Source: Nitrosopumilus sp.
Lineage (GTDB): Archaea > Thermoproteota > Nitrososphaeria > Nitrososphaerales > Nitrosopumilaceae
Direction: 5' to 3'
Assembly (NCBI RefSeq): GCF_025699125.1
Contig: NZ_JAILWC010000003.1
Location: forward strand, 62,001 to 126,000
Length of the DNA: 64,000 nt
The translations under genes were made by a program, and so were the position numbers. The notes beneath the pieces are model-generated. The model was given only the letters and a program-made list of their open reading frames with translations. It had not been told where the DNA came from and did no database searches. Shown here piece by piece: positions 62,867 to 63,694 of the stretch (its first letter is position 1; the number at the start of each line of letters is the position of its first letter).

Positions 62867-62959
62867 CGGGCTTGGAGGGCTTCGATCCCTCGACCTGTAA
62901 CTTAGGAGGCTACTGCGCTATCCATGTTGCGCGTCAAATTGACTCTGCGCCACAAGCCC
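62867..62959 (-). tRNA. tRNA-Arg (anticodon CCT) with an 18-nt intron in the D loop
   Basis: Acceptor GGGCTTG/CAAGCCC, anticodon stem GTAGC/GTTAC with loop CTCCTAA (U33, anticodon CCT), T stem GAGGG/CCCTC. The D arm is too long by 18 nt; removing 62927-62944 leaves a normal GCGC-AGCATGGATA-GCGC D arm with G15 opposite C48. The intron folds into a bulge-helix-bulge (see finding). Discriminator G73 (62867), no encoded CCA. T-loop position 54 is A instead of T, an unusual change. Confidence 0.9.
62927..62944 (-). other. 18-nt archaeal tRNA intron (position 15/16)
   Basis: As RNA the intron AGUCAAUUUGACGCGCAA has a central 4-bp helix with the D stem (exon GCGC 10-13 with intron GCGC), a 3-nt bulge AG|A, an inner GUCA/UGAC stem with a 3-nt loop, and a 3-nt bulge AA|C. 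Cutting after the second bulge base on each side gives a mature 75-nt tRNA. This is the substrate form of the archaeal splicing endonuclease. Confidence 0.8.
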
Positions 62960-62983
62960 AGCAAAAAAAATACTCTTAATTAT

Positions 62984-63694
62984 TTAAGCGTAATCAAGAT
63001 TATCCTTGATCATTTTTTGAATATTTTTCCAATTGTTATTTTCTTTATCATTCCATTTTTCAAAATATACAACATCTTTCAATTCTAGTCTTGGTAACCA
63101 TCCAGCAGTTTCAAGATCTGGTTTTTCTGCAAAATCATCAACATAACCTAAACACAAGTATGCAACAGGAATTACATGTTCGGGCAACTCTAAAACTTCT
63201 TTTAGAGTTTCATTTGATAGTATGCTTACCCAACCAAGGCCTACTCCTTCAGTTCTTGCTGATAACCATAAATTCTGAATTGCACAGCACACACTGTAAA
63301 GACCTGCCTCAGGAATACTTGATCTACCAATAACAAATGGTCCAAATTTTGTGGGATCATATGTTACACACAAATTTACGGGAGATTCTGAAATTCCCTC
63401 TAACTTGAATGAAAGATATTTTGATCTTTTCGGCTCTTCAATCAATTGTGATGAACGTTTTTTTTCATCCTGAAAAGATTCTTTTATTTTCTTTTTTGTT
63501 TGATCATCTTTAATTAAAATAAAATTCCATGGTTGTGAAAACCCAACTGATGGAGCATGATGTGCAGCATGAAGAATTTTTGATAAAATCTCATCTTCTA
63601 TAGGTTTGGAGGTAAAATGAGATCTTACATCTCGTCTTGAATAAATTGCCTTATAGAAGCCTCGTTTTTCATCTTCGGTAAAATCATCTGTCAA
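62984..63694 (-). CDS. bluB: 5,6-dimethylbenzimidazole synthase
   Basis: The 236-residue nitroreductase-fold protein has FYKAIYSRRDVRSHF, HAAHHAPSVGFSQPWNFIL and GLGWVSIL, the BluB pattern that differs from ordinary nitroreductases. BluB breaks FMNH2 with O2 to make the lower ligand of cobalamin. With cbiH in the same window, the organism likely makes its own B12. 67 bp from the tRNA-Val gene, divergent. Confidence 0.88.
   Translation of the reverse strand: MTDDFTEDEKRGFYKAIYSRRDVRSHFTSKPIEDEILSKILHAAHHAPSVGFSQPWNFILIKDDQTKKKIKESFQDEKKRSSQLIEEPKRSKYLSFKLEGISESPVNLCVTYDPTKFGPFVIGRSSIPEAGLYSVCCAIQNLWLSARTEGVGLGWVSILSNETLKEVLELPEHVIPVAYLCLGYVDDFAEKPDLETAGWLPRLELKDVVYFEKWNDKENNNWKNIQKMIKDNLDYA

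Follow-up and report, generated by a model that had tools for sequence, protein, structure and literature searches.

An 18-nt non-canonical intron very likely removed from position 15/16 of the sole tRNA-Arg(CCT) of a Nitrosopumilus genome

On the minus strand of the window (the whole 64,000-nt stretch of Nitrosopumilus sp. DNA that was analysed) lies a tRNA-Arg(CCT) gene whose D arm is 18 nt too long, with an extra part that can fold; the sequence is exactly as an earlier note on this DNA gave it. This raises the question of whether the gene is intact, and if so, whether the additional nucleotides leave the transcript or remain in it. We conclude with high confidence that the gene is functional and single-copy and that it carries an 18-nt non-canonical intron at 15/16. 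The intron has a relaxed (HBh') splice motif, and the transcript would be cut by the splicing endonuclease and joined by RtcB.

The gene and how gene finders read it

The genome spans 1.85 Mb in six contigs and is 99.98% complete. It yields 41 tRNA matches, among which the gene at 62959-62867 is the sole one with a CCT anticodon. According to the earlier note, another intact tRNA-Arg(CCT) elsewhere in the genome would have spoken against its reading; a second copy was sought across the 99.98% complete genome and none was found among the 41 tRNAs, the remaining arginine genes reading TCT, GCG and TCG. The neighbouring genes encode an NADPH-dependent FMN-reductase-like protein and a BluB/nitroreductase-family protein. 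The gene and its parts are as follows.

62867..62959, minus: tRNA-Arg(CCT) gene, 93 nt unspliced and 75 nt spliced including the discriminator G73 (62867); from the sequence, ARAGORN (spliced form only) and a partial match to Rfam RF00005.
62945..62959, minus: exon 1, positions 1-15 (acceptor 5' strand, U8, G9, D-stem GCGC, A14, G15); from natural empty sites.
62927..62944, minus: predicted 18-nt intron AGUCAAUUUGACGCGCAA, between G15 (62945) and C16 (62926); exactly missing from the G025 orthologue and from the f2 and Nitrosopelagicus genes.
62867..62926, minus: exon 2, C16 to G73, covering the remaining D arm, the anticodon arm (CCU, 62906-62904), the variable region, the T arm and the 3' acceptor strand; from the sequence.
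62980..62987, minus: TTAAATAA, a putative archaeal box A lying some 20-28 nt before position 1; kept upstream of the gene in this genome, G025, G043 and G010.

From 62959 to 62867, the gene reads GGGCUUG-UG-GCGC-AG-[AGUCAAUUUGACGCGCAA]-CAUGGAUA-GCGC-A-GUAGC-CUCCUAA-GUUAC-AGGUC-GAGGG-AUCGAAG-CCCUC-CAAGCCC-G. The acceptor strands pair as GGGCUUG/CAAGCCC, the anticodon loop is CUCCUAA (CCU), the T arm is GAGGG-AUCGAAG-CCCUC, and CCA is not encoded. Inspection of the sequence found no intron at the canonical 37/38 site.

The T loops of this genome show some variation of their own. AUCGAAG (62886-62880) has A54 and G60, not U54, and is common to three tRNA-Arg genes and one tRNA-Met gene of the genome (also L022, L101 and L015); f8, f10 and f14 homologues carry UUCAAAU. 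The two tRNA-Lys genes of the genome (L002, TTT; L003, CTT) have the T loop UCCGAAU, with C55 replacing the near-universal U55.

ARAGORN leaves the unspliced sequence uncalled and recognises tRNA-Arg(cct) after removal of the 18 nt. The spliced sequence folds as a cloverleaf with all arms present, and G15 can pair with C48, in agreement with the earlier proposal that intron removal restores a normal D arm. The Rfam tRNA model gives a partial match at 62937-62872, in which the GCGC of the intron acts as a decoy D stem; the score of 31.2 bits is slightly above the 29-bit cut-off. Taken at face value, this match would have the tRNA begin within the supposed intron, and the same decoy does recur in a Nitrososphaeraceae-type gene (L092). 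Such a tRNA would omit most of an acceptor stem that is perfect in the spliced reading, however, and naturally intronless orthologues fit the full model at 55-59 bits, leaving this reading with a negligible probability.

The missing ARAGORN call and the low Rfam score could also point to a pseudogene broken by insertion, with Arg AGG codons read by tRNA-Arg(UCU). We regard this as extremely improbable: the stems formed by the exons are unbroken, different genera and families maintain the gene, the helices of the intron covary (see below) and its removal gives a full cloverleaf. Reading the gene as intact and interrupted corrects the annotation, as ARAGORN or a generic Rfam model would overlook the sole tRNA-Arg(CCT) or label it a fragment. 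The earlier note expected intron finders tuned to the anticodon loop to miss the gene or call it a pseudogene; this overstates the case, as the archaeal mode of tRNAscan-SE has a Thaumarchaeota intron model for such introns (PMC8450103).

Natural empty sites and distribution among relatives

The boundaries of the intron can be read from genomes that do not have it. In one congener (G025), the exons are identical to those of an intron-bearing neighbour (G043) and the flanks are conserved on both sides; the only difference between the two tRNA genes is these 18 nt. Three genomes of family f2 and Nitrosopelagicus records likewise have GCGCAG|CATGG, with an intact acceptor strand immediately before it. 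This is the sequence of the joined exons, and a form retaining the intron would contain AGTCAATTTGACGCGCAA. Note that a gene was counted as intronless only if the acceptor stem lay directly upstream of GCGCAG. Some introns themselves end in GCGCAG (e.g. those of G026, G030, G403 and G190), so that short matches seem intronless yet sit inside an intron-bearing gene; these were not counted as intronless. The archaeal endonuclease cleaves the bulge between its second and third residues (PMC4307357), and the borders given by the empty sites agree with this rule.

Of the 55 congeneric genomes read, 54 carry the intron, as do, among the matches listed, most other genera of Nitrosopumilaceae. Among named records, Nitrosopumilus, Nitrosarchaeum, Nitrosotenuis, Nitrosotalea, Nitrosopelagicus, Cenarchaeum and Nitrososphaeraceae supplied matches to this tRNA. 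These matches mark the organism as an ammonia-oxidising archaeon of the Nitrosopumilaceae, with near-identical named loci pointing to Nitrosopumilus as the probable genus. At site 15/16, Nitrososphaeraceae-type genes have introns of 14-31 nt and family f12 (G083) has one of 21 to 22 nt. In total, the relatives supplied 76 distinct versions of 14-31 nt.

Inserts also occur in related genes and at another site. A second, related tRNA-Arg in the same genus (L087, G021:C73), whose anticodon loop is CTCCGGA (CCG), has an insert of 17 nt at 15/16 as well. Three tRNA-Arg(CCT) genes (L240, L241 and L100, in G083, G075 and G085) have an insert right after CTCCTAA, as in a canonical-site intron; G083 has it in addition to its 15/16 insert.

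The splice motif and the splicing enzymes

The elements of the predicted motif, all within the gene, are listed below.

62947..62950, minus: D-stem GCGC of the exon (10-13), 5' strand of the predicted central splicing helix and later part of the mature D stem.
62929..62932, minus: intron GCGC, 3' strand of the predicted central helix; alternative partner 62915-62918 (used in the MFE fold).
62944..62946, minus: 5' splice bulge A14-G15^A, predicted cut 62945/62944 (cut rule, PMC4307357); AG^A in 74 and AG^T in 2 of the 76 distinct relatives.
62933..62943, minus: inner hairpin GUCA-AUU-UGAC, whose three inner pairs covary.
62926..62928, minus: 3' splice site AA^C16, predicted cut 62927/62926; unpaired, with no enclosing outer helix; AA, AG or AT followed by C, A or T in all relatives.

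The inner hairpin proposed in the earlier note has strong comparative backing. In the alignment of 51 versions, pairing of the inner helix is 100% and there are 36 double changes. Both sides change at all three pairs, giving GUC/GAC, GCC/GGC, AUC/GAU, GUU/AAC, CCU/AGG and other variants. Its covariation score is 0.339 versus 0.143 in shuffles; none of 500 shuffles reached the observed value, and sliding the alignment by one to three columns lowered it to 0.09 or less. Mononucleotide shuffling of the intron produced the exact 4+4-bp motif at these positions with a frequency of 6.5e-5. The ends of the intron are conserved as well, with A as the first base in 74 of the 76 distinct versions and AA, AG or AT as the last two.

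Three pairs of the central helix are kept in all 76 distinct versions, and in one relative the pair C13-G is replaced by U13-A. The fourth and outermost pair, G10:N, is mismatched (G-A or G-G) in 39 of the 76; the earlier description of a central helix of exactly 4 bp holds for this gene, but the helix is often 3 bp in relatives. A strict outer helix was sought in the 51 aligned sequences and none was found. With G or A at position 9 and invariably A following the second bulge, no outer helix can form. Since this helix is absent and the outermost central pair is so often mismatched, the aligned sequences indicate that the motif is of the relaxed HBh' form, not a strict bulge-helix-bulge. The canonical class (hBHBh') was rejected, as the 3' bulge has no closing outer helix. 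The earlier claim of a full motif with two 3-nt bulges thus stands for AGA at the 5' site but not for AAC, which is open.

The GCGC of the D stem is its own reverse complement, and the intron copy may therefore pair with either exon strand. In the unaided MFE fold of the precursor, it pairs with 22-25, not with 10-13.

Two splicing endonuclease genes (PF01974) are encoded in the genome, for an alpha and a beta subunit. The alpha subunit is closest to solved crenarchaeal subunits; aligned to the catalytic subunits of S. tokodaii and A. pernix, it conserves Y, H and K, and its catalytic His aligns with an Ala of the A. pernix 3ajv chain. A loop lysine aligns to A. pernix K44 and is, by this alignment, the predicted residue permitting relaxed substrates. 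The beta subunit has no catalytic His. The genes predict an (alpha-beta)2-type endonuclease with the specific loop, a machinery that fits this substrate, and the RtcB ligase is also encoded. Given the empty sites, the conservation of the intron, the covariation of its inner helix and the presence of endonuclease and RtcB genes, it is very likely that the intron is spliced out. The empty sites, the covariation and the right enzymes all bear out the earlier placement of an 18-nt intron at 15/16 with borders set by the bulge rule.

The insert is itself conserved and could instead persist in the mature tRNA as an additional hairpin that enlarges the D arm. This is very unlikely. G025 lacks exactly this insert, yet its exons and those of G043 are identical; the conserved features are those of a splice motif (AG^A, AR^N and the central helix) and go beyond a mere hairpin; and the enzymes for removal are encoded in the genome.

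Under the spliced-intron reading, we propose the following pathway. In the pre-tRNA, the exon GCGC (10-13) would pair with the GCGC at the 3' end of the intron, which would take the place of 22-25. This central helix, together with the GUCA/UGAC hairpin, would present the 5' splice site as the 3-nt bulge AG^A, and the 3' splice site AA^C would sit in an open loop, as in a relaxed HBh' motif. The heterotetrameric (alpha-beta)2 endonuclease would cut after the second base at both sites, RtcB would ligate G15 to C16, and the D stem would then re-pair 10-13 with 22-25.

Possible intron loss and comparison with known archaeal introns

As to its history, we tentatively suggest, as a possibility to which we attach rather low confidence, that the 15/16 intron is old in ammonia-oxidising archaea, was kept across genera, and was precisely lost several times, once within the genus, with the G025 loss possibly RNA-templated. 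Owing to the GCGC palindrome, exon 1 and the end of the intron are near-perfect direct repeats, and where introns end in GCGCAG, slippage could delete the intron exactly. In the closest relatives of G025 among the genomes read, the intron ends in GCGCAA. Slippage in such a gene would leave A15, but G15 is observed, and slippage is therefore disfavoured for G025; on these sequences, RNA-templated loss would fit better, as would replacement from an intronless donor. The site offers a clean, densely sampled presence/absence system, with an identical-exon pair, for studying the loss of archaeal tRNA introns. The general picture of tRNA splicing is unchanged by this intron.

Other tRNA genes of the same genome are also interrupted. 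The initiator tRNA-Met (L110; G000:C3:254086-254160, minus, outside the window) has a 15-nt D-loop intron with the same bulges, AGCC-AG^A-CUAAUUAG-GGCU-AG^G, and ARAGORN misses this gene too. In 33 matched genomes of the genus, the 15-nt intron is present in 8 and the exact empty site AGCCAG|GTCA in 25. Further intron-bearing tRNAs (L102-L104, L108, L109 and L030) include Met, Gln(CTG), Tyr, Leu(CAA) and Ser(GGA), and Val(CAC) is over-long.

Non-canonical archaeal tRNA introns, including those in D arms, have long been known (PMC4090602; PMC4307357). PMC4090602 gives lengths of 11-129 nt with medians mostly of 12-25, by which 18 nt is ordinary, contrary to the earlier view that so short an intron is unusual. 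In the main texts of the literature searched, we found no individual description of this tRNA. PMC8450103 describes a bulge-helix-bulge model in tRNAscan-SE 2.0 that was trained on Thaumarchaeota, with 107 non-canonical introns in the Thaumarchaeota genomes analysed; these belong to the same phylum and the same class as ours. Given how widespread the 15/16 intron is in Nitrosopumilaceae, its orthologues probably make up some of the 107.

Experimentally confirmed D-arm introns are known from A. pernix tRNA-Thr(UGU) and S. tokodaii tRNA-Glu(UUC/CUC) (PMC4307357). Those introns are removed by EndA at the predicted borders; the isoacceptors and lineages are different. The closest likeness is to the relaxed HBh' introns, a class of Marck and Grosjean reviewed in PMC4090602 and PMC6379350. 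Like them, the tRNA-Arg(CCT) intron is short, has a 3-nt bulge at the 5' site and an exon-intron central helix of about 4 bp, and occurs in a host with a predicted (alpha-beta)2-type endonuclease. The sole difference is that site 15/16 is outside the text list of PMC4090602, a list that ends in "etc." The intron is thus a well-supported example of an already known class of archaeal introns.
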